DNA of 64,000 nt from Nodosilinea sp. FACHB-131. Lineage in GTDB: Bacteria; Cyanobacteriota; Cyanobacteriia; Phormidesmidales; Phormidesmidaceae. How positions within the stretch are numbered: position 1 is the first letter of the stretch; each line of letters begins with the position of its first letter. The notes under the pieces are model-generated. The model saw only the letters and a program-made list of their open reading frames with translations. It ran no database searches and was not told the origin of the DNA. Positions 1,957 to 25,205 of this stretch are shown piece after piece. A program made the position numbers and the translations under genes. Location of the stretch: the NCBI RefSeq assembly GCF_014695395.1, contig NZ_JACJOF010000007.1, forward strand, positions 124,001 through 188,000, in the 5' to 3' direction.

Positions 1957-3399
1957 ATGGCTTCTTTGGCACCGTCGCGATCGCAACCTGCCGCCGCACC
2001 GACTGCGGCTCTGTGGGCGGGGGCGATCGCCCAGCCCGCTACAGAATTCGCCGCCACGACGCTATCCGTATTGGAGGGGCAATTACCTGCGGGACTGCGG
2101 GGCACTCTCTACCGCAACGGCCCCGCTCGGTTCGAGCGCGGCGGCACCCGAGCCGGCCACTGGTTTGATGGCGATGGGGCGGTGCTGCGGGTGAAGTTTG
2201 ATGGCGACAGCGCCTTGGCCACCTACCGCTACGTGCGCTCGGCTGGGTATGTGGAGGAAGAAGAGGCCGAGCAGTGTCTCTATCGAGGCTATGGCACTCT
2301 GCCGCCCGTGTCTATCTGGCAGCGGTGGCAGACTCAAATGAAAAATGCCGCCAATACCTCGGTGCTGGCCCTGCCCGATCGCCTGCTGGCCCTATGGGAA
2401 GGGGGTCTGCCTCACCGCCTCGATCTAGAGACCCTAGAGACGGTTGGCCTAGACAACCTGACAGAACTCCAGTCTGGCGATACCTTTACCGCTCACCCCA
2501 AGCGCCATCCCCGCACCGGGGAAATCTTTAGCTTTGGCACGATTCCGGGGGGCAACGCCACCCTCAAGCTCTACCGCTGTAGTCCTGCCGGGGCCGTCGA
2601 GAAGACCGGCACAATTCCCCTAGCGGGGATTCCGCTGCTGCATGACTTTGTGCTGGCCGATCGCTACCTAGTGTTTTGCGTGTCGCCGGTGCGCCTTAGC
2701 CCCTTGCCGGCGCTGTTTGCTCTGTCTAGCTTCAGCGATGCGTTGCAGTGGCAGCCTCAGCAGGGCACCCAGATTATCGTGGTGGATGCCGACAGTCTGG
2801 AGGCGATCGCCCTCAATGACGCAGACCCCTGGTACCAGTGGCACTTTGGCCACAGCTACCTCGATTTTGACGGCTCCGTTGTGTTCGACGTGGTGCGCTA
2901 CAACGACTTTGCAACCAACCAGTACCTTAAAGAAGTGGCCTCGGGCCAGACCTCTACGCCCGCCGATGCCCAGCTCTGGCAGTACCGTATCGACCCTAAA
3001 ACTGGGAAGATTCTCGACCAGCATTGCTTGCTCGATCGCCACTGCGAGTTTCCGATCGCGTTTGGCCACGACGAGACGGCGGTCACTTATTTGAATGTGC
3101 ATCGCACGGTGCCCACTCCGGCGGATGAGCTGTTTGGGGCGATCGCCCGCCTTGAGCCTAAAGCTGGCCTCACCGTTGCCGATGCCGGAGAGGGCCGCTA
3201 TCCCTCAGAACCGATCGTCGTTGCGAACCCGGCGAATCCCCAGCAGCCCTGGGTGCTGACTGTGGTCTACGATGGTACCCAGCACCGCAGCGAACTGTGG
3301 GTTTATGAGGGGAATGAGCTTGAAAAGGGGCCGATCTGTCGGCTAGGGCTGCCGGAAGTGGTGCCTCACAGTTTTCACGGCACCTGGGTGAGTAAGTAA
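1957..3399 (+). CDS. carotenoid oxygenase (RPE65/CCD family)
   Basis: A 480-residue protein with the beta-propeller iron dioxygenase signature of carotenoid cleavage enzymes. Candidates for the four iron-binding histidines are His180 (TAHPKRHP), His229 (LLHDF), His296 (WHFGHSYLD) and His474 (SFHGTWV). Motifs GTLYRNGPARFE and WFDGDGAVL near the N-terminus are also typical. Cyanobacterial members include apocarotenoid-15,15'-oxygenases that form retinal; the exact substrate cannot be read from sequence. It appears to be a single-gene unit with its ATG after a short gap. A microbial rhodopsin, which needs retinal, lies about 14 kb downstream. Confidence 0.92.
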   Translation: MASLAPSRSQPAAAPTAALWAGAIAQPATEFAATTLSVLEGQLPAGLRGTLYRNGPARFERGGTRAGHWFDGDGAVLRVKFDGDSALATYRYVRSAGYVEEEEAEQCLYRGYGTLPPVSIWQRWQTQMKNAANTSVLALPDRLLALWEGGLPHRLDLETLETVGLDNLTELQSGDTFTAHPKRHPRTGEIFSFGTIPGGNATLKLYRCSPAGAVEKTGTIPLAGIPLLHDFVLADRYLVFCVSPVRLSPLPALFALSSFSDALQWQPQQGTQIIVVDADSLEAIALNDADPWYQWHFGHSYLDFDGSVVFDVVRYNDFATNQYLKEVASGQTSTPADAQLWQYRIDPKTGKILDQHCLLDRHCEFPIAFGHDETAVTYLNVHRTVPTPADELFGAIARLEPKAGLTVADAGEGRYPSEPIVVANPANPQQPWVLTVVYDGTQHRSELWVYEGNELEKGPICRLGLPEVVPHSFHGTWVSK

Positions 3400-10926: not shown

Positions 10927-13900
10927 CTACAACTGCACCAGCTGGGCGACGGCCCGCGCGATCGCATCGGGCTCGATGGGCTTAGACAAGTGCTGTTGGA
11001 AGCCGCTATCTAGCGCTTTTTGGGAGTCTTCTTCGCGCACGTAGGCGGTGAGGGCGATCGCCGGTACCTGCCCCCCTTGTTCGGGCGGCAGGGCGCGAAT
11101 TTTCCGCAGCAGCTCATAGCCATCCATGCCGGGCATGCCAATGTCGCTGACCAAGACATGGGGTTGAAAACTGGCCAGGGTGTCGAGCACCTCGGCGGCA
11201 GACTCGAGACCTATCACCTCTGCCCCATACTCGCCTAGCAGTAAGGTCAGCAAGGCTAGGCCATCGGGGTTGTCATCTACAGCGAGCACGCGTATGCCGG
11301 TCAGATCGATCTGACTCGGCAAAACGGGCATGGCTCGTTGGCTGGGGCGGTGACTGAGCAGCGGCAAGCTCACGGTAAACGTGGCCCCTTTGCCCTCGCC
11401 GGGGCTGTCGGCGCTGATGGTGCCGCCGTGGGCCTCTGCTAGGTAGCGCACGATCGCCAGACCCAAGCCCAGGCCACCAAATTGACGGGTAATCGAGGCG
11501 TCTGCCTGGCGAAAGGATTCAAAAATATGGGGCAAAAATTCCGGCCGAATCCCCTGGCCGGTGTCGGTAACCTTGAGCTGGGCCCAGCGGTCTACCCGGG
11601 CTAGCTGAATCGTAATCTGGCCCTGTTCGGGGGTAAATTTAATGGCGTTAGTTAGCAGGTTCCAGACAATCTGCTGAATGCGCGCTCCATCGCCCTGAAT
11701 TGGCCCAATGTCGGGCAGATCGGTCTGAATGCGAATGGCTTTAGCATCCGCTGCGGCCTGAACGGTTTCGATCGCCGCCTCAATCACAAACACCGGATCA
11801 ACTGAGGCGGGTTCGATCTTGAGCTTGCCGCGCAAAATCTTGGCGATGTCTAAGAGGTCGTCGATCAGCTGGGTCTGCAACTTGGCATTGCGCTCGATCG
11901 TTTCGAGGGCGCGGGCGGTTTTCTCGACATTGAGTTTTTTGGTTTGCAGCAGTTTGGCCCAGCCCAAAATCGGGTTGAGGGGCGACCTCAGCTCGTGGGA
12001 CAAAATCGCCAAAAACTCATCTTTAATGCGGTTGGCCCGCTCGGCGGCCTCACGGGCGGCCTGCTCTTGGCTCAGCAGCTGTTCGCGGGCGGCTTCGGCC
12101 TGTTTTTTCTGGGTAATTTCGAGAATAGTGCCGGTAAAGCGCAGGGGGTTGCCGTCGCCATCAAAATAGGTCTGCCCCTTAGCCCGCACCCAGCGTTCGA
12201 CTCGATCTTCTAGGCCGATCACCCGGTATTCCACGTCGTAGTTGCCGCCACTCTTCTGGGTGAGTGATTCGGCTATAACCTGTTTCAGTCGATCGCGATC
12301 GTCGGGATGCAGCCCTTCGTAGAACCGCTCAGGGCTGCTGTCGGCCTCAGGGGGCAGGCCAAATATGGCTTTGCAACCTGCGTCCCAGACCAGTTGGTTG
12401 GTGATTAAGTTCCAGTCCCAAATGCCCATGTTGGCCGACTCGATCGCCATGCGCAGACAGTCTTCGCTTTCTTGCAGGGCAATTGTGGCCTGCTGACGTT
12501 CGATGGCAATCTGGATTCTTTCACTGATGTCAACGGCGGCGCAGGTGACGCCAACAATAGTGTTTTGGTCATCGTAAATCGGGTCGATGGTCAGGTCGTA
12601 GTAGGAGGTTTGCCCGTTGGCAGTCACCTCAACCTCCTCGCGCAGGCCGACCCCAGTAACGATTACCTGGCGCTTGAGGTAAGTGAGCCGAGCTGCGGTC
12701 TCGGGTGAGGCCAAATCTTCGTCGCGCTGGCCAATCACCTGGTCTTTAGCCAGGTCGTGGGTGGGGTTATAAATCCAGGTGTAGCGCAGGTCAAGGTCGT
12801 GGTTAAACAGGCTAATCGGCGCACTCTTGAGGGCAACATTCAGCCGTTCGGTGGTCTGTTGCAGGGTCAGTTGGGCCTGTTTGCGATCGGTGATGTCAAT
12901 ATCGATGCCCGTCATGGTGAGTGGAATGCCCGTATCGCTATAGAAAACCCGTCCCAAACTCAAGATCCAGCACACCGTACCATCGGGCCTGATCACCCGC
13001 AGCTCGATGTTGTACTCGGCTTGCTTGTAGACCGCATCGTGCAGCGCGCGCTCAACCCGAGGTAGATCGTCGGGATGAACCATGGCCATGACAGTTTCGT
13101 AGGAGTCGTCGCGATCGGGATCGAGGCCAAACAGGCGTTTTACGTTGTCAGAAAACTGCACCACATCAAGCTGAATATCCCAGTCCCAGCTGCCCATGCG
13201 GGCTGCCGCCAACGCTAGATTCAGGTGTTCCTGGTGGCGTTGGAGAGCAATTTCTGTCTGTTTCAACTCAGTGATGTCTCGCCAGGCGATAATGCCGCCA
13301 GTGATCGTGCCCTCCTGGTTGTAAATTGGGCCAGCGTTGCACAACAGCACCAGTCTTTGCCCAGCTGCGGTTTGCAGCAGCCATTCCTCATTGGTGACGA
13401 CCTCACCCTGTTGAACCGCGCGGGTGAGGGGCAAAGCTTCGGGGGTGGCGAGGCTGCCATCGGCAGCAAAAATCTTCCAGGCTTGCGGATGATCGGTGGC
13501 AGGCAGGTCCTCAAGTTCCTCGGGGGGGCGCCCGGTTAGCTCTTGCCCGTAGCGGCTGACCTGGCGAATACGCACGTCGGGCGCATCGGCAATGGTGATG
13601 CCTTCGGGAATATAGGCCATCAAGGCATCGAGGGTGCGCTGACTGGCTTCGGCCTCCTGAATTTTTTGCTCCAGGGCAATTTCGATGCGTTTGCGATCGC
13701 TGATGTCGGCCAGCGCACCGGGAAAGATCACGGCATTGCCCTCGCTGTCGTATTCGGCCTGCCCGCGCGCAATGACCCAGCGCTCCTCACCCTGGGGATT
13801 GCAGATGCGAAACTCGGCGGTGCAGCTGTCTCTAGTGGCGATCGCCTGGTCAATAGCTGCCGCCACCCGCGCCCGGTCGTCGGGGTGAATGATGTTGATA

Positions 13901-15309
13901 AATTTCTCCAGGCGGACCCCGGCGGCGACTTTTTCGGGGTCAAGGCCAAACAGCTGGGCAAAACTGCGGTTGGCCACCACCCGATTTTTGCGAATACTCC
14001 AGCACCAGGTGTAGACCGATCCGGCAGAGAGAGCCGCTTCAAGCTGAATTAGGGCCTTTCGCAGCTTCAGTTCGGCCCGGTTGCGATCGCGCAGAGCCGC
14101 CTGCTGCTGGCTGATGTCGACCGTGGAACCCACCACGCGAGTCACCTGCCCCTGTTCGTCGCGCACCAGGCAGCCCCGTTCCCAAACATCGACCCAGCGA
14201 CCATCCTCGTGGCGAATCCGATAGTCTGACTCGTAGCGCTGGCTAGAGCTGGCGAAGAGCTCCTCCATGCGGTGGCGCAGTCGCGCCCGATCGTCGGGAT
14301 GAATGCGATCCTCCCACCACCGCGATGTGGGTGGGGCCTCGGTAGCGGACACCCCAATTAAATCAAACAGTTGCTCAGAGCGGTAAACGCGATCGTCCCC
14401 GTCCAGGCTCACCTTACTGACGTCAAACACCAGCCCGTTCACCGCCTGCACAATCAGCTGAAAGCGCTCTTCTAAGTGCTTTTGGGCATCAATGTCGACC
14501 AGGGTACCCACCCAGCCGGTGACCTGTCCGTCAGGGTCACGCATCGGCACGCCCCGATTCATAAACCAGCGGTAAACGCCATCGTAGCGGCGCAGGCGGT
14601 GCTCGAGGGCAAAGGGCTTACCGGCGGCGATTGCTTCGCTCCATGTGTCCAGGGTGAGGTCATGCTCGTGGGGGTGCATGCAGCTGGCCCCAGCCCACCC
14701 CATCGACTCGGCTGCGCTGAGGCCGGTGTACTCATACCAGCGCTGATTCCAATGGGTGATCGCTCCGGTGCGATCGGCTGTCCACACAATTTGCGGCAGG
14801 GCTGCGGCCAGCTCTGGGTAGGGCAGTTGGGGGGTAGCAACTGCGGCTTCGAGCGCGGTGGTGATGGGCCGATCGGTTAAGCCTGCCGGGACGATTTGCG
14901 CAGCATTCGGGAGCTGACTTGGAACGAACGCTCCTTCGGGAATCGCCGCTCGCAGTGCTAAACCTAGCGCCTCTGGGGTGAGCTGATCTCTCACCAAATA
15001 GTCAGCGACTCCAGCTTTGAGGGTTGCCACCGCCGTCTTAATGTCGTTCTCGCCTACAACGACTATGGGGGCAGCTTTTCCCCACGATTGTTGCAGCTGC
15101 TTGAGCTGGTCGACGCCGTCCCCATCCAAAGGGTAAAGATCGAGCAAAATGCCATCAACCTGTAGGGGCTGGTCTTGGCTTACCTGTCCACCGGGGGCCT
15201 CAACCACCCGGTAGGAGATAGCCGCTTGGTGCTGCAACATCTGCCGCAAGCGATCGGCCTGCCCAGGCGAGCTACTGACCAATAAAACTGTCCGCTCTGG
15301 GGGTGTCAT
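10927..15309 (-). CDS. multi-PAS hybrid sensor histidine kinase with N- and C-terminal receiver domains
   Basis: About 1460 residues from the ATG at 15309; a TTG at 15441 would add 44 residues. The N-terminal receiver-like domain (about 8-125) keeps a candidate phospho-Asp (ILLDLYP) but lacks the acidic pair (LLVSSSPGQ) and the invariant Lys (YLVRDQLT), so it looks degenerate. About seven PAS/PAC units follow, then HisKA with the phospho-His in AILSHELRSPLNP. The HATPase has NLLTNAIKFTPEQG and LGLGLAIVRYL. The C-terminal receiver is intact (VLAVDDNPDG, VSDIGMPGMDG, LSKPIEP). It is predicted to be soluble. No ribosome site is evident. The signal is unknown. Confidence 0.9.
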   Translation of the reverse strand: MTPPERTVLLVSSSPGQADRLRQMLQHQAAISYRVVEAPGGQVSQDQPLQVDGILLDLYPLDGDGVDQLKQLQQSWGKAAPIVVVGENDIKTAVATLKAGVADYLVRDQLTPEALGLALRAAIPEGAFVPSQLPNAAQIVPAGLTDRPITTALEAAVATPQLPYPELAAALPQIVWTADRTGAITHWNQRWYEYTGLSAAESMGWAGASCMHPHEHDLTLDTWSEAIAAGKPFALEHRLRRYDGVYRWFMNRGVPMRDPDGQVTGWVGTLVDIDAQKHLEERFQLIVQAVNGLVFDVSKVSLDGDDRVYRSEQLFDLIGVSATEAPPTSRWWEDRIHPDDRARLRHRMEELFASSSQRYESDYRIRHEDGRWVDVWERGCLVRDEQGQVTRVVGSTVDISQQQAALRDRNRAELKLRKALIQLEAALSAGSVYTWCWSIRKNRVVANRSFAQLFGLDPEKVAAGVRLEKFINIIHPDDRARVAAAIDQAIATRDSCTAEFRICNPQGEERWVIARGQAEYDSEGNAVIFPGALADISDRKRIEIALEQKIQEAEASQRTLDALMAYIPEGITIADAPDVRIRQVSRYGQELTGRPPEELEDLPATDHPQAWKIFAADGSLATPEALPLTRAVQQGEVVTNEEWLLQTAAGQRLVLLCNAGPIYNQEGTITGGIIAWRDITELKQTEIALQRHQEHLNLALAAARMGSWDWDIQLDVVQFSDNVKRLFGLDPDRDDSYETVMAMVHPDDLPRVERALHDAVYKQAEYNIELRVIRPDGTVCWILSLGRVFYSDTGIPLTMTGIDIDITDRKQAQLTLQQTTERLNVALKSAPISLFNHDLDLRYTWIYNPTHDLAKDQVIGQRDEDLASPETAARLTYLKRQVIVTGVGLREEVEVTANGQTSYYDLTIDPIYDDQNTIVGVTCAAVDISERIQIAIERQQATIALQESEDCLRMAIESANMGIWDWNLITNQLVWDAGCKAIFGLPPEADSSPERFYEGLHPDDRDRLKQVIAESLTQKSGGNYDVEYRVIGLEDRVERWVRAKGQTYFDGDGNPLRFTGTILEITQKKQAEAAREQLLSQEQAAREAAERANRIKDEFLAILSHELRSPLNPILGWAKLLQTKKLNVEKTARALETIERNAKLQTQLIDDLLDIAKILRGKLKIEPASVDPVFVIEAAIETVQAAADAKAIRIQTDLPDIGPIQGDGARIQQIVWNLLTNAIKFTPEQGQITIQLARVDRWAQLKVTDTGQGIRPEFLPHIFESFRQADASITRQFGGLGLGLAIVRYLAEAHGGTISADSPGEGKGATFTVSLPLLSHRPSQRAMPVLPSQIDLTGIRVLAVDDNPDGLALLTLLLGEYGAEVIGLESAAEVLDTLASFQPHVLVSDIGMPGMDGYELLRKIRALPPEQGGQVPAIALTAYVREEDSQKALDSGFQQHLSKPIEPDAIARAVAQLVQL

Positions 15310-15589
15310 GGCAAGACTGATGGTGCAAACCTTGAATTGGCCCCGCTGCAACGGGCGATCGTCTATACAACCGCTGACTATTGGGCGAAGCACAGCTCTA
15401 ATAAAGCTGTAAACCTCGAAAGCAGGGCGAATGAGTGCCAATTGTTGAAAAAATTTTATATTGTCTACTCTGACAACAGGAATATGTCTAAGGGAAGAAC
15501 TACTTAGGGCAGTGCTACGACAGCTCTACTGGACCCAGCTATAGGCCACGCCCAGCGGCGGTAGGCCGCAGGCTAGCTCGTTTGCCGCC

Positions 15590-16174
15590 TCAATTGCCTG
15601 TAGGGGCGATTTCGTTAGTGGCAATCTCCCCACCCGAAATCGCGATCACGAGTACGTCGTCATACTGCACCCCCGACCACACTAGGCTGTTGGGTAGCAA
15701 TGAGCTCAACTCGATTGCTTTACACTCGCTGACGCTAGAGTGCACCTGGTAGCCTAGGCTCTCAAGCCAATCCCTTAAGGTCTGTATCAACGATGGATCG
15801 TTTAAGGTTGATTGGCTTTGCCAAATTGTTGCGTATTTTGCCTTTCCAGTTTGGTCTTTGGCAAAGGAAGGGTTGGTCTCTAGGCCGCAATAATGGCGCA
15901 TCACGGCGCCACGAATACGTTTCTTGCTGACTTTTTCGCCTAGGGCGATCGACAGCTTTTTCCAAAGCTTATAGCCTACGGATTTCTCAACATACTCAGG
16001 GTTGAGGGGATGAATCTCCTCATAGGTTTTTCCTTCCCAAGAGCCGAGAAATATGCGGCTTTCTAAATCGTTGAGGCGTCGTCCTTCAGCGTTGTAAAGA
16101 GCATCGTCGACGAATAGGAGTGCAGCTTGAGGTGTAATTTCTTCTAGATCGAGTGCTTTTGATTTACTTGGCAT
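15590..16174 (-). CDS. stand-alone VMAP-type N-terminal HTH domain protein
   Basis: A 194-residue protein. Residues 15-95 (ALLFVDDALYNAEGRRLNDL, then GSWEGKTYEEI, VGYKLWKKLSIALGEKVSKK) match the N-terminal domain usually fused to NB-ARC/WD40 or NACHT proteins in cyanobacteria (vWA-MoxR-associated protein N-terminal HTH). Here no ATPase or repeat domain follows. Instead there are about 95 residues of unrecognised alpha/beta sequence ending EIAPTGN. It could be an adaptor that docks on a larger conflict or signalling complex (inference). It lies 148 nt beyond the long-frame start of the hybrid kinase. A CRP-type site sits about 110 nt upstream. Confidence 0.65.
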   Translation of the reverse strand: MPSKSKALDLEEITPQAALLFVDDALYNAEGRRLNDLESRIFLGSWEGKTYEEIHPLNPEYVEKSVGYKLWKKLSIALGEKVSKKRIRGAVMRHYCGLETNPSFAKDQTGKAKYATIWQSQSTLNDPSLIQTLRDWLESLGYQVHSSVSECKAIELSSLLPNSLVWSGVQYDDVLVIAISGGEIATNEIAPTGN

Positions 16175-16627
16175 TACGAATACCCCTTGGACTGCATGAA
16201 AAGGAATTTGCTCCTTTTTGGCTGGTAGAAAAGCGGTCAGAGCTAGATTTACGCATTATCTTAGGTCTGACAAGCAGGGCCAAAGCTGATCTAGATCACA
16301 ACCAAGGGTGATAATACGGGTTTATAACATCATAAAAATCACACTCAGGCTCTATGTATTTGGCTAAGCTTTATCCAGCTTTGAAAAAGCCCTCAGCCTG
16401 CTGCTGGGAAATTAGGGGAAACTCTGAGTTTTTAAGAGGTCTGTGGCAAATATTCGTTTTTTGTGGAAGCCTTTGAGGCGAATCTATTGCTGAAAATCCC
16501 CGCTTTGCTAATGAGCTTTTATGGTTGATAAAATTGCTCAAATCAGGAACATTATGGTTATGTTCTCTCCCCCTTAGGGTGCTAATTTGACTCGGTTAAC
16601 TATGCATTGAACGAATGGAGGGAAACC
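16175..16627. other. intergenic region with the CRP-like site
   Basis: About 450 nt between divergent genes, A+T-richer than its surroundings. Apart from the CRP-like site, an AT-rich TAATAC stretch follows at about 16313 and GGAGGG lies at 16617-16622 just before the HD gene. No ORF is supported. Confidence 0.5.
16285..16300. promoter_or_regulatory. candidate CRP-family operator
   Basis: GCTGATCTAGATCACA matches the cAMP-receptor-protein consensus TGTGA-N6-TCACA, with a perfect right half and two mismatches in the left half. It lies in the intergenic region between the VMAP-domain gene (start 16174, minus) and the HD-domain gene (start 16628, plus). It could serve either. Cyanobacterial SyCRP1 sites have this form. 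Confidence 0.5.
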
Positions 16628-17548
16628 ATGTCACAAAATCTCTTTAAGTCTATAGAAGGCCGGCTTTGGGAGAGCTATAACACCATGTTTGGCTATACCG
16701 CGCTGAGCTATTGGCAGTCGTTCGCAACCCTAGCCCACGAGATTATCCCCTACCTGCAAGGCACTGATGCTCCCTACCACAACGCCGATCACACCCTGCA
16801 AGTGATGCTGGTGGGGCAAACGATTTTAGAAGGGCGCTATTTACAACACCATGACCTAACTCCCCAAGACTGGCTCAATGCTATGGTGGCCCTGCTGTGC
16901 CATGACATTGGCTATGTAAAAGGTATTTGCCCTGGCGACGATGGTGCTATCAACCAGTTTGTTACCGGGCAGGGAGACGACTGGGTAGCGCTGTCATCCC
17001 GCTCAACGGATGCCAGTTTGACCCCCTACCACGTGAGCCGAGGGCAGAGATTTGTCCGCCATCGTCTGGCAGTACAGCCCCTAGTCGATGTTGACGTTGT
17101 TGTAGATTGCATTGAGCACACCCGGTTTCCTGTACCACCTGAGTCTAAATATCAAACCACCAACGATTTGCCAGGGCTGTGCCGAGCCGCCGATCTGCTA
17201 GGACAACTGAGCGACTCAGACTACTTAAAGAAGCTCTCTTCTCTATTCTGCGAGTTTGCAGAAACGGGAACTAATGCTGCGCTGGGATATGAGTCTGTGG
17301 CCGATTTGCGGGCTAACTATCCCCACTTTTATTGGTACGTGGTGTATCCGTTTATTCAGGCGGCGCTGAGGTATTTAGCTGTGACGGTTCAGGGGCGCGA
17401 GGTCATTGCTCGCCTCTTTACCAACGTGTATCTGGTGGAGCTAGAGCAGTCGTTGTCTGAGACGGCCTCAGCGGGTTTCAAACAGCAGGCCGCCGCCCAA
17501 AAGGTTTTGCCCTTTTGCCTCACCGACAATCTCGGCTATAGCTTGTAG
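16628..17548 (+). CDS. HD-domain phosphohydrolase, cyclic-nucleotide PDE-like
   Basis: A 306-residue protein. The metal-binding motif is Y50-HNADH55-T with H92-D93 (LLCHDIGYVKG), followed by TDASLTPYHVSRGQRF and IEHTRFP. The HNxxH...HD order resembles class I 3',5'-cyclic nucleotide phosphodiesterases, but assignment of substrate is inference. The start is ATG 16628, with GGAGGG just upstream. A paralogue lies at 26021. The rhodopsin gene follows 242 nt downstream on the same strand, and a CRP-like site lies about 330 nt upstream. Confidence 0.8.
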   Translation: MSQNLFKSIEGRLWESYNTMFGYTALSYWQSFATLAHEIIPYLQGTDAPYHNADHTLQVMLVGQTILEGRYLQHHDLTPQDWLNAMVALLCHDIGYVKGICPGDDGAINQFVTGQGDDWVALSSRSTDASLTPYHVSRGQRFVRHRLAVQPLVDVDVVVDCIEHTRFPVPPESKYQTTNDLPGLCRAADLLGQLSDSDYLKKLSSLFCEFAETGTNAALGYESVADLRANYPHFYWYVVYPFIQAALRYLAVTVQGREVIARLFTNVYLVELEQSLSETASAGFKQQAAAQKVLPFCLTDNLGYSL

Positions 17549-17790
17549 TCCTAAGATTATTTTCCGTTCGCCTCCGCAATTGCCTAAGGCGAACCTGCGC
17601 TAGTGACATTAGCCCGGCAAGAAAACACGCATTTGTGCCGAATTTGAATGTAGCGCTTTGCTACCTGTTATCTACCTCAAACACATTACAACTATGCCTT
17701 GAGCAGAGCAAAATCTATCCATAGAACCATACCGCTCGGACGGTTGTTTTGAGACAGTATTAGCGACTTGATCGGGGCGATCGCAACTAC

Positions 17791-18498
17791 ATGGCTCAAA
17801 TATGGCTTTGGATTGGAGTAGGTTCCATGGCGCTGGGCGCTGCTTTTTTTGGCTTTGGTGCCCACAGCGCTAAAACCGAAGGCTGGAGAAAGCTATATAC
17901 CCTCAGCTTTTTCATCTGTTTGATTGCCAGTGCTTTATATCTAGCCATGGCGTTGGGCCAGGGGCAGAGCGTGGTCAACGATCGTCCCACGGTTTGGGTC
18001 CGCTACATTACCTGGTCACTGTCTACACCGCTGCTGCTGCTGATCTTTGCCTTTTTGGGCCACACCAGCCTAACGCTGACCGGCAGTTTGCTGGGGGTCA
18101 ACGCCTTTATGATTGCGACAGGGCTGGCGGGAGCTCTCTCCCCAGATCCCATCAACTACATTTGGTATGTTGTCAGCTGTGCGGCGTATTTAGCGGCCGT
18201 CTACCTCCTGCTGGTACCCTTTAGACACGAAGCCGAGCGCAACCGCCCCCGCACCAAGAAGGCCTTTGGCCAGCTAGTTGCTATTCATCTAATTCTTTGG
18301 ACGGCCTACCCAATTGTTTGGATTCTAGCCCCTACTGGTATTGATGCCATTAGCCAAGATTTTGAAACCATGTTCTACACGATCTTAGACATATCATCTA
18401 AGGTTGGCTTTGGCCTGCTCTCGCTTAGCACCTACAGCAAGATTGAGCATATTGGTGCGGCTACGAGCGATTTAGAGCCCACGCCTTCGCTGCGGTAA
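17791..18498 (+). CDS. microbial (type I) rhodopsin, halorhodopsin-like motif
   Basis: A 235-residue seven-helix protein. Helix G carries the retinal Schiff-base lysine, Lys204, in ILDISSKVGFG with Asp200. Helix F has LWTAYPIVW. Helix C reads RYITWSLSTPLLLLI; aligned with bacteriorhodopsin, positions 85/89/96 are Thr74, Ser78 and Ile85, with Arg71 conserved. The T-S pair is the signature of chloride-pumping halorhodopsins; cyanobacterial chloride pumps described so far have T-S-D, so the Ile is unusual. Glu192 aligns with bacteriorhodopsin Glu204. It is probably a light-driven anion pump, though a sensory role cannot be excluded. The ATG at 17791 has no strong ribosome site. Confidence 0.93.
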   Translation: MAQIWLWIGVGSMALGAAFFGFGAHSAKTEGWRKLYTLSFFICLIASALYLAMALGQGQSVVNDRPTVWVRYITWSLSTPLLLLIFAFLGHTSLTLTGSLLGVNAFMIATGLAGALSPDPINYIWYVVSCAAYLAAVYLLLVPFRHEAERNRPRTKKAFGQLVAIHLILWTAYPIVWILAPTGIDAISQDFETMFYTILDISSKVGFGLLSLSTYSKIEHIGAATSDLEPTPSLR

Positions 18499-18657
18499 CG
18501 GACGAAATTTCAATCAACGGCGCAGGCGAATCCTTGGGATAGGCCTTGCCTAAAACCAAGCTGACGGGTTTTAGAAAATACTGCTTCAAAGTAATAGCTA
18601 CCTATTTAGGCCCACTGTGCTTTTTGCGGGGTGTAATTTTTAGCGATGAGCGCGATC

Positions 18658-18706
18658 GCAGATCACAATCTTGCTAAAGGATGACGTTGGCCAGATTGTG
18701 ATCTGC
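18658..18706. repeat. 14-bp perfect inverted repeat with CRP-like half sites
   Basis: GCAGATCACAATCT (18658-18671) and AGATTGTGATCTGC (18693-18706) are perfect inverted copies around a 21-nt spacer. Each arm contains a GATCACA/TGTGATC half site, arranged facing outward. It could be an RNA hairpin after the rhodopsin gene or a looped protein-binding site. The rest of the 18499-18843 gap contains nothing else recognised. Confidence 0.6.
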
Positions 18707-18843
18707 TCCTAATGACAGTCCTGGGCTTTATGACAGCCACGTTAACATCTCTTTAGAAATGTCGCAGTTGTTTAGATCGAGCGATCGCAGCTAATCATGA
18801 CAGGTCTTTGCCCTGCGACGGCTGTAATCATCACTTAAATATT

Positions 18844-19134
18844 ATGACTGACAAAAATACCCGTCCCGACCAAGTCGGCAATCCCAAAGAAGCCGAACCA
18901 GGCCGTGGGGCTCCTGGCAATCAGTGGGCTGTGCAAACGGCTCAGTCAACCAACGTTAACCCCGCTGATGAAAAAATTCCGTCTAATGTCGATGTGGAAA
19001 AAAATCGGCAGCAAATAGCAGATTACGCTGCCCAAGAAGAAGGGACTCTACCCACTTCCCATGGCTTTGTAATTGATGAGTCTGGCAGGATTGATAACTT
19101 CCCTGTTGAGCCCCCCATGTACGTCGAAGAATAG
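18844..19134 (+). CDS. small hydrophilic hypothetical protein
   Basis: A 96-residue protein from the ATG at 18844 (MTDKNTRPDQVGNPKEAEPG). It is rich in Asn, Asp, Pro and Glu and is probably disordered at the N-terminus. The C-terminal half has LPTSHGFVIDESGRIDNFPV and an acidic end. No function recognised; proteins of this make-up are seen in filamentous cyanobacteria. It is followed 71 nt later by the DUF2267 gene on the same strand, suggesting a shared transcript. Confidence 0.6.
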   Translation: MTDKNTRPDQVGNPKEAEPGRGAPGNQWAVQTAQSTNVNPADEKIPSNVDVEKNRQQIADYAAQEEGTLPTSHGFVIDESGRIDNFPVEPPMYVEE

Positions 19135-19205
19135 CACTCAGTCTGTATAGGTAGCCGTGCTACCCAATAGACTTTTACGTTCACTAAAGGCACTAAGGAG
19201 GCATT

Positions 19206-20081
19206 ATGCCAATTTCTATTCGAGACGATGTGGTGTTTATCATCCTCGACAAAATCAACCAGTTCAATCAAGAAAATCAGCAGGGAGACATTGATTTTTC
19301 TTCCACTGATTTCACCGGTCTAGGATTGACCGAGTCTGATCTATTAGGTCATCTGGACTATCTAAACCAGAGGCAATACATCCAAGCCGAATTTAGCGGC
19401 AATGCCTATGGCAATCAGGAAGACGTGCCTAGCGTCGTAGACTCAGACGAGGTAGGCTTTCGCGTAGCCAACACCTATGGCGCTGCAGACGGTCCTCTAC
19501 CTCACCTGATTGAGTTTAAGCGAGCTACGCTGACTGAGAAGGGCCAGCGCATGCTCGAAGATATGGAGCAAAACCCACCCAAAGACATGGATAAAGGGCC
19601 AGCGGTGCCGTTGCTCAATGAGCACACGCCCTTCTTAGAGAAGGTCAAAGTTAAGGGTGGTCTGCCTGATATCTACGACGCTCGCGACATTACCGAGACG
19701 GTCTTTCGGGTAATGCGGGACGTAATGACTACCGCCGAGGCCGATCGCATTGCGGATGAGCTGCACAACGATGCGCTGCCCACTGACGAAAAAGCCTTGC
19801 AAATGGAAGTGGCTGAGCTTTGGAAGGACAGAAACCCCATCGTCGGTTTTTTGAGCCGCATTCGTCCGCCGCTCAAGGGGCCAGCACCTATCGGCATCGA
19901 CTCCAAGCTGTTTTTGACGCGGGTGGATAACGAAGCGGGCGTACCGAAGACGGTGAATGCGGAAATCGTTGTCTCCGCCGTCTTTTCAGCCACCAAAGAT
20001 GAGCTATCCCAGGAGCGCATTGAGGCAGTTGCCGAGTGGTTACCAGAAGGTAAAGTGCGCGAAATCTGGCAAGCCGCCTAG
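19206..20081 (+). CDS. DUF2267 family protein
   Basis: A 291-residue protein. The N-terminal 70 residues look like a winged-helix-type fold (VVFIILDKINQFNQ and LGLTESDLLGHLDYLNQR). The region from about 155 to 291 fits DUF2267 (YDARDITETVFRVMRDVMTT, ADRIADELHND, then a second half-repeat VSAVFSATKDELSQERIEAV and AEWLPEGKVREIW). The molecular role of DUF2267 is unknown. A strong ribosome site AAGGAGG lies 5 nt before the ATG. An intrinsic terminator follows at 20218. Confidence 0.7.
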   Translation: MPISIRDDVVFIILDKINQFNQENQQGDIDFSSTDFTGLGLTESDLLGHLDYLNQRQYIQAEFSGNAYGNQEDVPSVVDSDEVGFRVANTYGAADGPLPHLIEFKRATLTEKGQRMLEDMEQNPPKDMDKGPAVPLLNEHTPFLEKVKVKGGLPDIYDARDITETVFRVMRDVMTTAEADRIADELHNDALPTDEKALQMEVAELWKDRNPIVGFLSRIRPPLKGPAPIGIDSKLFLTRVDNEAGVPKTVNAEIVVSAVFSATKDELSQERIEAVAEWLPEGKVREIWQAA

Positions 20082-20217
20082 CACCGTGGTTGTAAGTGGT
20101 GCGCGATCGCTCAACGTGACGCACTGCTTACGATCAAAAGCCCTCCTCAGTAGGGCAGTGCGCTGAGGCTAAGAATGACTGGCCATAGTCAACTGTCTAA
20201 AAGCTGTCAGCGCCCAC

Positions 20218-20244
20218 GCCCCTCTCCTAAGGGGCATTTTTTTT
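20218..20244 (+). terminator. intrinsic terminator
   Basis: GCCCC/GGGGC stem with an 8-nt loop (TCTCCTAA) followed by ATTTTTTTT. It ends the DUF2267 transcription unit. The rest of the gap to about 20480 shows no supported gene. Confidence 0.8.
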
Positions 20245-20488
20245 GCCTATAGCAGGTGAAGCCTAGGACGGCCCAAAACGCCAACAACTCAAGCCCATTG
20301 AGTATTTTTCACTTTTCACTCTTCTCTTTTTATTTTTTGCTATAAGCTGCTGCTCAAGCACCACCCCTGCCGTGGCCTTCCGTCCCCCAACTCGTTTTCG
20401 CTCATCCTGTAACCGATTTTGTAACCACGCTTCGCAGCTCTAAATGGCTGGCTATGGTAATGGAGCAAAGCAAAACAGTGTTGAGACT

Positions 20489-21373
20489 ATGGCTCCCTTA
20501 CCTCTTCAAACTAAAACCCTATTTGCGCTGCTGGCCATGGGTACGATCGCAATCCAAGGCATGGCAGTGGCCTGTATTGACCCTAGCTCAGGGGTCAGTG
20601 GGCTTCCAGGGCAGAGTGAACCCCGCCCCGCCCGACCAGAGCCCCGCCCCGCCCTAGAGCCAGAGCCTCGCCCAGGAAACTGGGAAGTAGCGACGGTTGA
20701 GGACCTGGTTACCCGAGCGGTAAGCCGCCGCATCCTGCGAACCGTCGCCGCCGAGGTCGATCGCCCCGCTTCTGAGCTGCGCATCGCCGCCGCCGAAGCC
20801 GCTACCTGGGACGGCTGCATGGGCATTTATGAACCCGACCAGTTCTGCACCATGATTGCTATTTCGGGTCTGCGCCTCGTCGTTACCGATGGCGATCAAA
20901 GCTGGGTCTACCACGCCCGCCAAGATGGCCGAGAAATGGTGCAAAACCCCACGGCCATCAGCCGCAACGGTCTCATTCCCGACTTTATTCCCCCGGTGAT
21001 GGCAGAGCCGACAGAACCCGAAGCGCACATCTTTCGCTCAGTCGAATCGGGGAGCTTGGTCGGCACCCAATTTGAGACCGTGTTGCTAACCGACGGCCGA
21101 CTTTTGCGGAAAGAGAACGGCAAGGTTGTGTCAGAACGGCAACTCCCGGCAGAGCAAGTAGCCGCCTTTGAACAGGTTTTAGAAGACCAGCGCTTCCCTA
21201 ACCTCAATCGCCTGCGGTACATCACCGATGCTGCTTTTGCCGATTACCCTACGGTGCAGCTGTCGGCCATGCAGTACGAAACCACCTATATTGACCTAGC
21301 CATCGACGATGCCCCACCCGCACTCCAAGCTGTAGTGCAGGCTTGGAGCGAGCTGACGGCCGAGGCCCAATAA
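20489..21373 (+). CDS. exported hypothetical protein (possible lipoprotein)
   Basis: A 294-residue protein from ATG 20489; ATG 20444 in the same frame would add 15 residues. It has a signal peptide (KTLFALLAMGTIAIQ) with a possible lipobox at GMAVAC. A Pro/Arg repeat linker (EPRPARPEPRPALEPEPRP) follows, then a globular domain containing SELRIAAAEAATWDGCMGI and a C-terminal region with VLLTDGRLLRKENGKVV. No named family is assigned. It probably acts in the periplasm or at the outer membrane. Confidence 0.65.
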   Translation: MAPLPLQTKTLFALLAMGTIAIQGMAVACIDPSSGVSGLPGQSEPRPARPEPRPALEPEPRPGNWEVATVEDLVTRAVSRRILRTVAAEVDRPASELRIAAAEAATWDGCMGIYEPDQFCTMIAISGLRLVVTDGDQSWVYHARQDGREMVQNPTAISRNGLIPDFIPPVMAEPTEPEAHIFRSVESGSLVGTQFETVLLTDGRLLRKENGKVVSERQLPAEQVAAFEQVLEDQRFPNLNRLRYITDAAFADYPTVQLSAMQYETTYIDLAIDDAPPALQAVVQAWSELTAEAQ

Positions 21374-21597
21374 CCTGCTGAGTCGAGAACGGCGGCAGAT
21401 CGTCTGGTTGCGAAGACTCTTGAGGGCGTAGCGTGCTGCGTCCTCAAGAGTTTCCTATTTGACCCCGCAGTCGGGAGCCGGCATTGATGCGATCGCTCTA
21501 CTCCCCAACGCGGTGGTATTCGAGTGGAAGCAACTACCCCAAGCATTCGTTTTATGATCGGGTGAGTTGGTCATGTAATGGCTGCCTAGAGGGTGAA

Positions 21598-22005
21598 ATG
21601 GGAACGTGGTCAGTGGACGCCTTTGGCAACGATGACGCCGCCGATTGGGCTTTTGAGCTAGCAGAATCCAACGATCTGTCGCTGGTTGAAGCGGCCATCG
21701 ACGGGGCGTTAGCGGAGAGCGATTATCTAGAGGCGCCGGATGCGGCGATCGCATTAGCAGCCATTGAGGTGATTGCACGGCTCAACGGTAACTGGGGCGA
21801 TCGCAACGCCTACAGCGAACCAGCTGACGCTTGGATCGCGCAGGTTAATGTGCAGCTAAATCCTGAACTACTGGTGCGGGCACGGGCAGCCATTAATCGC
21901 ATTTTGAGCGAAGACTCGGAGATGTTAGAACTGTGGCAAGATAGCGGCGATCACGAGGCCTGGTTAGGGTCGGTAGAAAATCTGCGATCGCGCCTCGGTG
22001 CATAA
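21598..22005 (+). CDS. DUF4259 domain protein
   Basis: A 135-residue protein starting MGTWSVDAFGNDDAADWAFE, the characteristic opening of DUF4259, followed by the helical repeat-like region AIDGALAESDYLEAPDAAIA. The function is unknown. ATG 21598 is preferred over the longer frame because it starts the domain and has AGAGGGTGA just upstream. Confidence 0.8.
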   Translation: MGTWSVDAFGNDDAADWAFELAESNDLSLVEAAIDGALAESDYLEAPDAAIALAAIEVIARLNGNWGDRNAYSEPADAWIAQVNVQLNPELLVRARAAINRILSEDSEMLELWQDSGDHEAWLGSVENLRSRLGA

Positions 22006-22058
22006 GTAATTGATTCGGCTGTCGGAATTGTCCAACAATATAGGCACTAGCACTGATT

Positions 22059-22508
22059 ATGGAGATATGGGTCGATGCCGACGCCTGCCCCAATGTGATT
22101 AAAGAAATCCTGTTTCGGGCTGCCAAACGGGTCGAGATTAAGACTACCCTAGTCGCCAATCAAGAACTACAAATTCCAGGTTCTCCCTACATTGATGCCG
22201 TACTGGTGCGATCGGGTTTAGATGTGGCCGATAGCTACATTGTGCAGCACTTACAATCTGGCGATTTGGTGATCACAGCCGATATTCCCCTAGCGGCTGA
22301 AGCTATCGAGAAAGGCGCCTATGCCCTCAACCCCCGAGGCGAATTTTACGATCGCGGCAATATTCGAGAGCGCCTGTCCATGCGAAATTTCTTGAACGAG
22401 CTTCGCAGCGGTGGGGTAGAAACCGGCGGACCTCCTCCATTTAGCCAACGAGATACGGCAGCTTTTGCCAACCAGCTCGATCGCTTTTTAACCAAGCACA
22501 GAAAGTAA
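22059..22508 (+). CDS. YaiI/YqxD (DUF188) family protein
   Basis: A 149-residue protein matching the YaiI/YqxD family: [18 protein letters not shown] at the N-terminus, [13 protein letters not shown] in the middle, then [19 protein letters not shown] and the [13 protein letters not shown] motif. It has a PIN/NYN-like fold with conserved Asp residues (DADAC, TADIPLA), so a nuclease-like role is possible but unproven. Length is typical of the family. Confidence 0.88.
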
Positions 22509-23408
22509 ACATTAACTGCCCGATCGCTGTCGGCCTTTGTGAACTTCATCTTCTCTAAAGAAGGAAAGACTATGGGGTGAACCATGGGTGAGCCCAACTC
22601 GCGCGGGGTACGTAATTCCTATCCTAGGATTGAACAGGTGTTTGACTTCAGCACCGCTCAGCAGCAAGCTGGCCATGTCTTAATCGGCGAAATTGCAAGC
22701 CAGGCAGTGCAGGTGATCTTGCTGTACCCAACCGTAATAGCAGCTGCCCATTGGTCAGCAACCAAAACTGTTCTTAATAGCTTGACCTTTAGCCTAGCCT
22801 GCTGCCTATAGAAGCCTCGCTAGAGGGCAACGCCCAATCAGAGGGTGCGTTTCACGACGAAGACTCCGCCACTATGTGCAATTCCCAAAAACAATCATGC
22901 TAGTAAATAACCGTAAATTCAATGCGATGATCGCCTGAGTAAAACTGGCTAAAGAGCCATTAAATCTCGCTCCAACCCGCCATATAGCGGTTCCTTTAGG
23001 TATAAAAATGTGCTAAATCACCCATATATCACATTAAAGGTCCATTCACCAACACTAGGATCTTGACAAACTCGCAATTGTCCTATGACTACTTTGGGAG
23101 GGCCTGTGATGTTCCAGTTTCCTATCGTTCTAGCCAACAAAACGGCTGGATTTGAGCGTTCTGAGCTGACTATTTTCCCTACAATCATTAACTTGTCTAC
23201 AAGACTTAACCACAGGACACAGAACTTTACTTGGTCAATAGAGATGCTATAAGAGTCTGAGGGGCAGAATTACGTATGAGGAGTAATGTAAGGTGCAATA
23301 CGTTACCTCTTATAGAGCTGCTCCCAATAGTGCAAGCAGTCTCTCGGGCTACTAACAACACAAGCCATCATCTAGCTATAACTCTGGTAAGTCCTGATCT
23401 TTGACACT
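22509..23408. other. 900-nt intergenic region
   Basis: A+T-richer than the flanking genes. A plus-strand frame at 22584-22811 is open but looks non-coding (no ribosome site, no family). The promoter of the GAF-GGDEF gene presumably lies near its right end; a TATAGAG/TATAAG-type -10 is seen around 23248-23314. Nothing else is supported. Confidence 0.4.
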
Positions 23409-25205
23409 ATGTTCCACAGCAAGTTTTGGGCTCTCTTAAATCGGTTGGCAAAATTAATTGCTAATTTGGCTTGCCGAGTTGGTCATATCCCAACTATTGA
23501 TCAGCTAGAGGCTCAGCTACAGGATAAGTGCTATCAACTCGAAACTATTGATGCTCAGGAAAAAGCGCTTTACCGAGTAATCAGCAAAATCCGAGCATCC
23601 TTGGATGTGGACATGATTTTCCGCACTACTACCCAAGAAACCTGTAAGTTACTGCGAATTGAACGCATGGCCGTTTATCGTTTTTTCGACGACTGGGGGG
23701 GAGAATTTGTTGAAGACTTTGAATTTGCTGAACCAGGCTGGAATTTTGGCAAACTAGGGCAGAATACTGTTTGGAATGATTCGTATCTGCAAGAGCATCA
23801 GGGAGGTCGATATCGCTCCAATGAGTGCTTAGTAGTTGCTGATATTTACACCGAAGATCTGTCGCAATGTCACATAGACGTTTTAGAACAGTTTCACATT
23901 CGGGCCTATGCCACAGCGCCTATTTTTATCGGGCAAAAATTGTGGGGGGTACTAGCTGCTTATCAACATTCGCAACCCTATCAATGGCAACATCAAGAAA
24001 TTCAGTTTTTGTCGCAAGTTGCGAATCAACTCGGATTCGCGGTGAAACAAGCTGAATTAATGGCGAAAACCGAGCGCGAGGCTGAGGATCTGCGACTGCT
24101 CAATCAGCAACAAGAGATTTTATTTAAACTGATTGCTGATATTCGTGAGTCGCTTGACCTAAACACGTTGTTTAAAACGACAGCCCGCGAGGTTCGCAAA
24201 GCTTTACTCACCGATCGAGTTGCTATTTTTCAGTTCGATGTCGATTCTCAGTACAATTCTGGAGAGTTTGTTGCTGAGAATGTATTGCCAGAATATGACT
24301 CGGCGATCGCGATTAAAGTGAGCGATCACTGTTTTGGCAGTCAATATGCGGCCCGATATCGACAGGGGCAGATGCAGGTCATTTCAGATCTCTCCGAGGC
24401 TGGACTAAATCAATGTCATGTAGAACTGCTGGAAAGCTTTCAGGTCAAGGCACAAGTTGTTGTGCCCGTCATGAAAGGCGGTGACCTGTGGGGATTGCTT
24501 TGCGTTCATCAGTGCGATCGCCCCCGCGTTTGGAACTCCGCTGAGATTACCTTTATTAAACAATTGGCGGCTCAATTTAGCGTTGCCTTACGCCATGCCG
24601 ATCTGCTCGCCCAAGCTGACTCTAAAGCTGAACAACTAGACCAGGCACTTCAAGCCCTGAAGCAGGCCAACGAAAAGCTAGAAGAGTTAAGTAATCTCGA
24701 TTCATTAACGCAAATTTCGAACCGCCGCTTTTTTGATAAGTCTCTAAGAAGCGAATGGAAGCGATTGCTGCGAACTGAGAAGTACTTATCTCTAATTTTA
24801 TTTGATATTGACTATTTCAAAATCTATAACGATTGCTATGGGCATCTAGCAGGTGACCAATGCCTGATCGACATTACGCGAGCGGCTCAGCTTGTCCTCA
24901 AGCGTTCCTCAGACGTTCTAGCTCGCTATGGTGGAGAAGAGTTTGCTGTAGTTTTGCCAGACACAGATCGAGTGGGGGCTGTCAAAATTGCCGAAGAAAT
25001 TCGAGAAACCGTCAAAAGTTTGCAGATTCCTAATAAGTGTATGCAAACCGATCATCCCTACGTCACGATTAGCCTGGGCATTGCTAGTCAGGTCCCAAAG
25101 GCTGGTCAATCAGTTCGAGATATTATTCGTCAAGCTGATCAAGCGTTGTACCAAGCAAAGGCAAAAGGGCGCGATACGGTGGTCTGTGCAACTCTCGCTC
25201 AATGA
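23409..25205 (+). CDS. GAF-GAF-GGDEF protein, probable cyanobacteriochrome diguanylate cyclase
   Basis: A 598-residue protein: coiled-coil-like N-terminus, GAF1 (about 60-215), GAF2 (about 240-398), GGDEF (about 425-598). Both GAF domains have the bilin-lyase-type Cys-His pair of cyanobacteriochromes (SQCHIDVLEQF, Cys154-His155; NQCHVELLESF, Cys336-His337). GAF2 also has a DXCF motif (D306-H-C308-F) typical of dual-cysteine blue/green photoreceptors. The GGDEF active site is intact (GGEEF 508-512), as are DIDYFKIYND and an inhibitory RxxD site (499-502). It is predicted to make cyclic di-GMP under light control. Bilin binding is inferred from motifs only. Confidence 0.85.
   Translation: MFHSKFWALLNRLAKLIANLACRVGHIPTIDQLEAQLQDKCYQLETIDAQEKALYRVISKIRASLDVDMIFRTTTQETCKLLRIERMAVYRFFDDWGGEFVEDFEFAEPGWNFGKLGQNTVWNDSYLQEHQGGRYRSNECLVVADIYTEDLSQCHIDVLEQFHIRAYATAPIFIGQKLWGVLAAYQHSQPYQWQHQEIQFLSQVANQLGFAVKQAELMAKTEREAEDLRLLNQQQEILFKLIADIRESLDLNTLFKTTAREVRKALLTDRVAIFQFDVDSQYNSGEFVAENVLPEYDSAIAIKVSDHCFGSQYAARYRQGQMQVISDLSEAGLNQCHVELLESFQVKAQVVVPVMKGGDLWGLLCVHQCDRPRVWNSAEITFIKQLAAQFSVALRHADLLAQADSKAEQLDQALQALKQANEKLEELSNLDSLTQISNRRFFDKSLRSEWKRLLRTEKYLSLILFDIDYFKIYNDCYGHLAGDQCLIDITRAAQLVLKRSSDVLARYGGEEFAVVLPDTDRVGAVKIAEEIRETVKSLQIPNKCMQTDHPYVTISLGIASQVPKAGQSVRDIIRQADQALYQAKAKGRDTVVCATLAQ

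Follow-up and report, generated by a model that had tools for sequence, protein, structure and literature searches.

A type-1 rhodopsin gene of Nodosilinea sp. FACHB-131 raises the question of whether a cyanobacterial protein with Thr, Ser and Ile (TSI) at the helix C positions equivalent to bacteriorhodopsin (BR) 85, 89 and 96 is a distinct anion pump, a sensor, or a mostly ordinary member of a known family. The gene lies in the 64,000-nucleotide stretch of DNA that was analysed as a whole (hereafter the window), of which a preliminary description had considered Ile at the third site unusual, on the grounds that the known cyanobacterial pumps have Asp there. That description was right about the open reading frame at 17791-18498, about Lys204 and about helix C, RYITWSLSTPLLLLI, and alignment with two halorhodopsins of known structure (MrHR and SyHR, see below) gives the motif as T74/S78/I85. 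The parts of the gene on which the argument depends are the following (positions in the window):

17791..18498, plus strand: coding sequence of a type-1 rhodopsin of the cyanobacterial halorhodopsin (CyHR) clade; open reading frame with an ATG start, 235 amino acids, Pfam PF01036
17905..17907, plus strand: codon of Ser39, a site with Asn in 36/36 CyHR sequences outside the TSI group
17998..18060, plus strand: helix C, residues 70-90, containing RYITWSLSTPLLLLI (helix predicted, limits from the alignment)
18010..18012, plus strand: codon of Thr74 at the BR 85 position, the putative anion-binding Thr (by alignment, with its role in SyHR from PMC9617919)
18022..18024, plus strand: codon of Ser78 at the BR 89 position, the putative anion-binding Ser (by alignment, with its role in SyHR from PMC9617919)
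18043..18045, plus strand: codon of Ile85 at the BR 96 position, a site with Asp in 30/43 CyHR sequences
18286..18288, plus strand: codon of His166 in helix F, near the proposed anion release path (43/43 CyHR sequences; PMC9617919)
18400..18402, plus strand: codon of Lys204, the retinal Schiff-base lysine, invariant in 43/43 CyHR sequences

The 235-residue product matches the Pfam family Bac_rhodopsin (PF01036) at 9e-52 and is the only PF01036 match of its genome; an NCBIfam search at 1e-3 returned no family. Its best matches in the PDB are MrHR (the Mastigocladopsis repens halorhodopsin, PDB 6xl3 and 6k6i; E 3e-95) and SyHR (the Synechocystis PCC 7509 halorhodopsin, PDB 7zou and 7zoy; E 1e-91), followed by the cyanobacterial rhodopsins 6lm0 (6e-45) and 6lm1 (2e-41), the latter of which, named merely "Rhodopsin" in the PDB, we take to be a cyanorhodopsin (CyR), and then by cyanorhodopsin-II and bacteriorhodopsins at about 1e-37 to 1e-35. 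Seven helices are seen in an AlphaFold2 model (mean pLDDT 89.4), for which an alignment of 26 rows was the input. When the chains ranked highest by Foldseek were aligned to this model with VIA-align, MrHR and SyHR came out on top (Z 34.4-35.1, rmsd 0.7-0.9 Å), with cyanorhodopsin-II (Z 32.4) and then bacteriorhodopsin (Z 30.6) next.

Relatives of the protein were gathered from overlapping sets of genomes, in which many of the matches are other rhodopsins: six loci from named species genomes, a sample of the phylum (match at 1e-5 in 14/386 genomes), the genus (14/26 genomes), the order (24/63), the family of genome G125 (46/217 at 1e-15) and a sample of the order of genome G308 (25/291 at 1e-15). 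Counts given for the clade refer to 43 CyHR sequences, from which the broken or fragmentary copies L070, L071, L073, L086, L087 and L090 are excluded; L001, the gene of the window itself, is not counted besides L008, MrHR and SyHR were entered as the stretches matched in the PDB, and five pairs are identical over residues 2-219, which leaves 38 distinct sequences. One of the 43 (L067, N-terminus not recovered) is absent from both trees discussed here.

The first tree (63 sequences) combines CyHR proteins with cyanorhodopsins, archaeal bacteriorhodopsins, NpHR, HsHR and other cyanobacterial rhodopsins. Its 42 CyHR sequences, including the window protein, MrHR and SyHR, form one side of a branch (support 99/95) that recurs in every one of 200 bootstrap trees. 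Within it, the seven TSI sequences have a branch of their own (100/98) and are joined with the TSV protein L039 at 99/99. The relatives of the window protein in this group come from Nodosilinea sp. WJT8-NPBG4 (97% identity), from two genomes of the same genus (95%), from a Leptolyngbya sp. ULC186bin1 record and a second genome with an identical protein (92%), and from Nodosilinea sp. LEGE 06152 (88%). As far as its sequence goes, the rhodopsin is thus a member of the known CyHR clade, and mostly an ordinary one. The distinctness proposed in the preliminary description is largely refuted by this placement, since the protein falls inside a described clade for which TSI has already been printed (PMC9617919).

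Two other affiliations were considered and rejected. An origin by transfer from an archaeal halorhodopsin is contradicted by the position of NpHR and HsHR outside the CyHR branch, as well as by the motif, which is TSI and not TSA; the archaeal halorhodopsin itself joins the CyR sequences only weakly (81/50). Membership of CyR, a proton pump, is at odds with Thr74, in the place of Asp, at BR 85, and the CyR sequences occupy a separate branch. The solved CyR-II sequence was left out of the tree, and ranks behind MrHR and SyHR both by sequence and by fold. Two sequences of the first tree, L104 and L017, sit on very long branches and are of unsure placement.

The two closest relatives of known structure, both members of the same clade, compare with the window protein as follows. 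MrHR (about 65% identity) shares with it T74, S78, H166, E192, D200, K204, N63 and P118, but has D85, N39 and E182 where the window protein has I85, S39 and T182. SyHR (62% identity) shares T182, Q57 and the anion-site residues, but has D85, N39, A63, A118 and a Thr at 136 in the place of I85, S39, N63, P118 and Ala136. The archaeal NpHR (3a7k) and HsHR (1e12) resemble the window protein in having Thr and Ser at the first two sites and a non-acidic third residue, but the latter is Ala, and both are described as having no counterpart of His166 in PMC9617919, where the helix F histidine is given as characteristic of the CyHR clade only. Across the 43 CyHR sequences, R71, H166, E192, D200 and K204 are invariant; both the retinal-binding Lys (K204, within LDISSKVGFG) and the helix G Asp counterion (D200) are kept. 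In SyHR, the K205A mutant lost colour and transport (PMC11995866).

The third site of the motif is far more variable. The 43 sequences comprise 30 TSD, 7 TSI, 2 SSI, 2 TSV, 1 TSL and 1 TTV, so that Asp85 is absent in 13 of them, while Thr and Ser at BR 85 and 89 (T74 and S78 in the window protein) are typical of the clade, with three departures. The statement that the described cyanobacterial pumps end in Asp was wrong: their motif is given as TSD, TSV or TSL in PMC5877348, and the clade was characterised in 2022 as predominantly TSD "with TSV/TSL/TSI variations" (PMC9617919). Because TSI members of a described clade were already in print, and because nearly a third of the sequences have no Asp, little is left of the unusualness attributed to Ile at this site. 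In a second tree (35 CyHR and 6 outgroup sequences, with columns 39 and 85 removed and seven near-copies left out), site 85 underwent at least three changes between Asp and non-Asp among the CyHR sequences, with either direction possible at the base; lack of Asp is therefore a recurrent state. Two further CyHR proteins (L082:1498-2202 and L083:1498-2202, 57% and 56% identity to the window protein) carry Ile85 together with Ser for Thr74 (SSI), a motif also seen in the broken copy L090.

What sets the TSI sequences apart is rather site 39, where Ser occurs in 7/7 of them and Asn in 36/36 of the others, including the six more that are without Asp85; the tree accounts for the replacement of Asn39 by Ser39 with a single change. 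Asn39 is the hydrogen-bond partner of Asp85 in SyHR (PMC9617919). Since L039, from a genome of the same family (70% identity), combines Val85 with a retained Asn39, the TSI lineage probably lost Asp85 first and Asn39 later. As there is one lineage and one event, no statistical coupling between the two sites can be claimed. The pairing of Ser39 with Ile85 in all TSI sequences may be a small new point, the motif itself being already in print. Other differences lie nearby: residue 76 is Ser in the TSI sequences (shared with L039) and Phe in 34/36 of the other CyHR sequences, residue 86 is Phe as opposed to Leu in 36/36, residue 87 is Ala, and at position 136, beside the release cavity, the TSI protein has Ala versus Ile, Thr, Val or Leu in its relatives. 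In addition, Thr182 is found in 7/7 TSI sequences.

With both polar contacts (D85 and N39) gone from the TSI protein, one might suspect a decaying rhodopsin no longer capable of transport, all the more as other cyanobacteria have broken CyHR copies. Within the set of seven TSI genes, however, omega is 0.030-0.068 over a dS of 0.13 to 1.9 (leaving out one identical pair), values by which the TSI rhodopsins are under strong purifying selection, and I85 and S39 are kept throughout the group, which makes decay barely conceivable. Nor is I85 a sequencing slip, given that it is carried by seven sequences (six distinct) with such omega values and is encoded by ATC in six and by ATT in one. Elsewhere in the Cyanobacteria, the broken or split CyHR copies (L070, L071, L073, L087 and L090) suggest repeated loss of the pump.

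Altogether, we consider it very probable that this CyHR protein pumps anions (Cl-) inward, driven by light. The transport direction, the substrate and the photocycle would be those of MrHR and SyHR, to which we reason by analogy and which PMC9617919 names as the only experimentally characterised members of the clade as of 2022; our search of open-licence papers found neither a characterised TSI member nor transport, spectrum or expression results for one. The preliminary description had offered the choice between an anion pump and a sensor, and it is the former that agrees with the clade and with the kept anion-site and retinal residues. In the proposed mechanism, green light would isomerise the retinal on Lys204, and the Cl- bound by the Schiff base at Thr74/Ser78 would be released near His166, both by homology to SyHR and MrHR (PMC9617919), after which a new anion would come in from outside; Arg71 would be part of the anion-binding region. 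Ile85 would then stand for an Asp that is off the proposed anion path, and the Asp85-Asn39 hydrogen bond of the relatives would be gone (I85/S39), with a hydrophobic residue at the site that is Ala in the archaeal pumps.

The role of this Asp in CyHR proteins is described as unclear, and the residue as not conserved in the family, in PMC9617919, which also mentions a hypothesis according to which it prevents Cl- backflow. It is not required for pumping, because RmHR pumps Cl- inward with a TSA motif (PMC5877348). For NpHR, it has been argued that fast Cl- transfer benefits from hydrophobic residues on the cytoplasmic path (PMC12538430), an argument with which a hydrophobic residue 85 would be compatible by analogy. 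Pump kinetics could nonetheless differ, since the TSI sequences are different at S76, F86, A87 and Ala136. While the family, fold and basic function of the TSI rhodopsin are already known, the TSI proteins are natural, selected versions without Asp85 and its Asn partner, and those of the Nodosilinea type can directly test whether the Asp-Asn pair matters for speed or for chloride retention. A stronger reading of I85/S39, which strikes us as rather unlikely, is that the lineage has changed in function, with a control of anion release or backflow unlike that of MrHR and SyHR, and with consequences for the substrate range (e.g., sulphate), a partial passive conductance, or signalling, besides pumping, via an unlinked homologue of the Anabaena sensory rhodopsin transducer (ASRT).

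As for the substrate, a pump dedicated to sulphate or some other large anion in place of chloride would find an argument in Thr182, a residue shared with SyHR, which pumps sulphate, and in the small Ala136 beside the release cavity, which might enlarge that cavity; N63 and P118 are MrHR-like, however, and we hold such a specialisation to be improbable. Some (weak) sulphate transport in addition to that of chloride is a fair guess and seems possible from the sequence, since the window protein shares the Thr182 of SyHR where MrHR has Glu: when Glu182 of MrHR was replaced by Thr, sulphate pumping in relative terms went up about 11-fold, from 0.008 to 0.092 (PMC9525653). The guess is weakened by N63 and P118, which are as in MrHR and not as in SyHR, although MrHR did not become a sulphate pump when sites 63 and 118 alone were changed (PMC9525653).

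The sensor half of the preliminary proposal can be judged from the surroundings of the gene, where four further elements of the window and its genome come into play:

17711..17790, plus strand: stretch upstream of the rhodopsin, conserved with L004 despite differing neighbours (blastn, DNA alignment); perhaps a promoter or leader
16607-17548: phosphodiesterase-like open reading frame upstream of the rhodopsin, below the PF00233 cut-off
10927-15441, minus strand: large hybrid histidine kinase with several PAS and receiver domains, upstream of the rhodopsin
L108:1495-1869, minus strand, on contig C13 of the window's genome: ASRT homologue (PF07100, 4.7e-53)

Under this proposal, the loss of the cytoplasmic Asp would have turned pumping into signalling via a partner, for example the unlinked ASRT homologue. 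The genome has a single such homologue, on another contig, and the TSI protein is its sole PF01036 rhodopsin, a result that tells against reading the protein simply as a pump and nothing else; moreover, the phosphodiesterase-like frame and the multi-PAS hybrid histidine kinase are located upstream of the gene. In the genus, ASRT is found in 7/26 genomes: in three of the four with a TSI rhodopsin (G000, G397 and G398, but not G391) and in 4/22 of those without, a weak co-occurrence (one-sided hypergeometric about 0.047) between genomes that are related and not independent. G391 has the TSI rhodopsin and no ASRT was found in it (a draft, 92% complete), whereas ASRT occurs without rhodopsin in the control Thermotoga maritima (no PF01036 match) and in G410, where the PF01036 match is only below the cut-off. 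The 26 genomes hold 18 rhodopsin matches over the cut-off, four of them TSI proteins and 14 others; G397 has another rhodopsin besides its TSI protein, which is the only one over the cut-off in G000 and G398.

In the neighbourhood of the gene, locus L002 matches all of window positions 14001-24000 but 22534-23038, at 88-89%, while L003 has no match to 15512-17703 and is devoid of the phosphodiesterase-like gene. With L004, the whole window has in common only 17711-18506 (L004 5921-6716, 80% identity by blastn). The neighbours scanned in L004, L005, L007 and L039 are unrelated and include no conserved gene, no cognate transducer gene stands beside the rhodopsin in the neighbourhoods scanned, and three small open reading frames close to the rhodopsin, of which two are in the window and one is in L007, have no Pfam match at E<=1 beyond one at chance level. 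As no neighbour is conserved across L003, L004, L005, L007 and L039, and as the pump residues are intact, a photosensor appears very improbable. The gene, being without conserved neighbours, thus looks like a unit of its own, as would suit a pump that works alone. In L004 (5921-6716), the rhodopsin gene and about 80 bases of leader are found in another neighbourhood, as if moved as a unit.

Such a pump needs retinal, and three RPE65-family oxygenases are encoded in the genome. One of them is closely homologous to the apocarotenoid-15,15'-oxygenase in PDB 2biw (607 bits), owing to which a supply of retinal is likely, this homologue presumably making it in the host. Another related gene lies in the window itself:

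1957-3399, plus strand: carotenoid oxygenase of the RPE65 family, related to apocarotenoid-15,15'-oxygenase (224 bits)

A rhodopsin-specific link of this last gene was considered and discarded, since all 26 genomes of the genus have a match to it at 1e-30 and only four have the TSI rhodopsin; in 24 of the 26, the best match reaches at least 64% identity.

Finally, plasmid records contain eight matches to the rhodopsin at 1e-5, all with at most 41% identity, the best being a rhodopsin of Deinococcus aetherius (NZ_AP026562.1, 144234-144914, 41% identity). Among the other rhodopsins gathered, L089:1501-2214 (plus strand) is cyanorhodopsin-like, with the motif Asp-Ala-Asn and hence without the proton-donor acid, and is found on a long branch.
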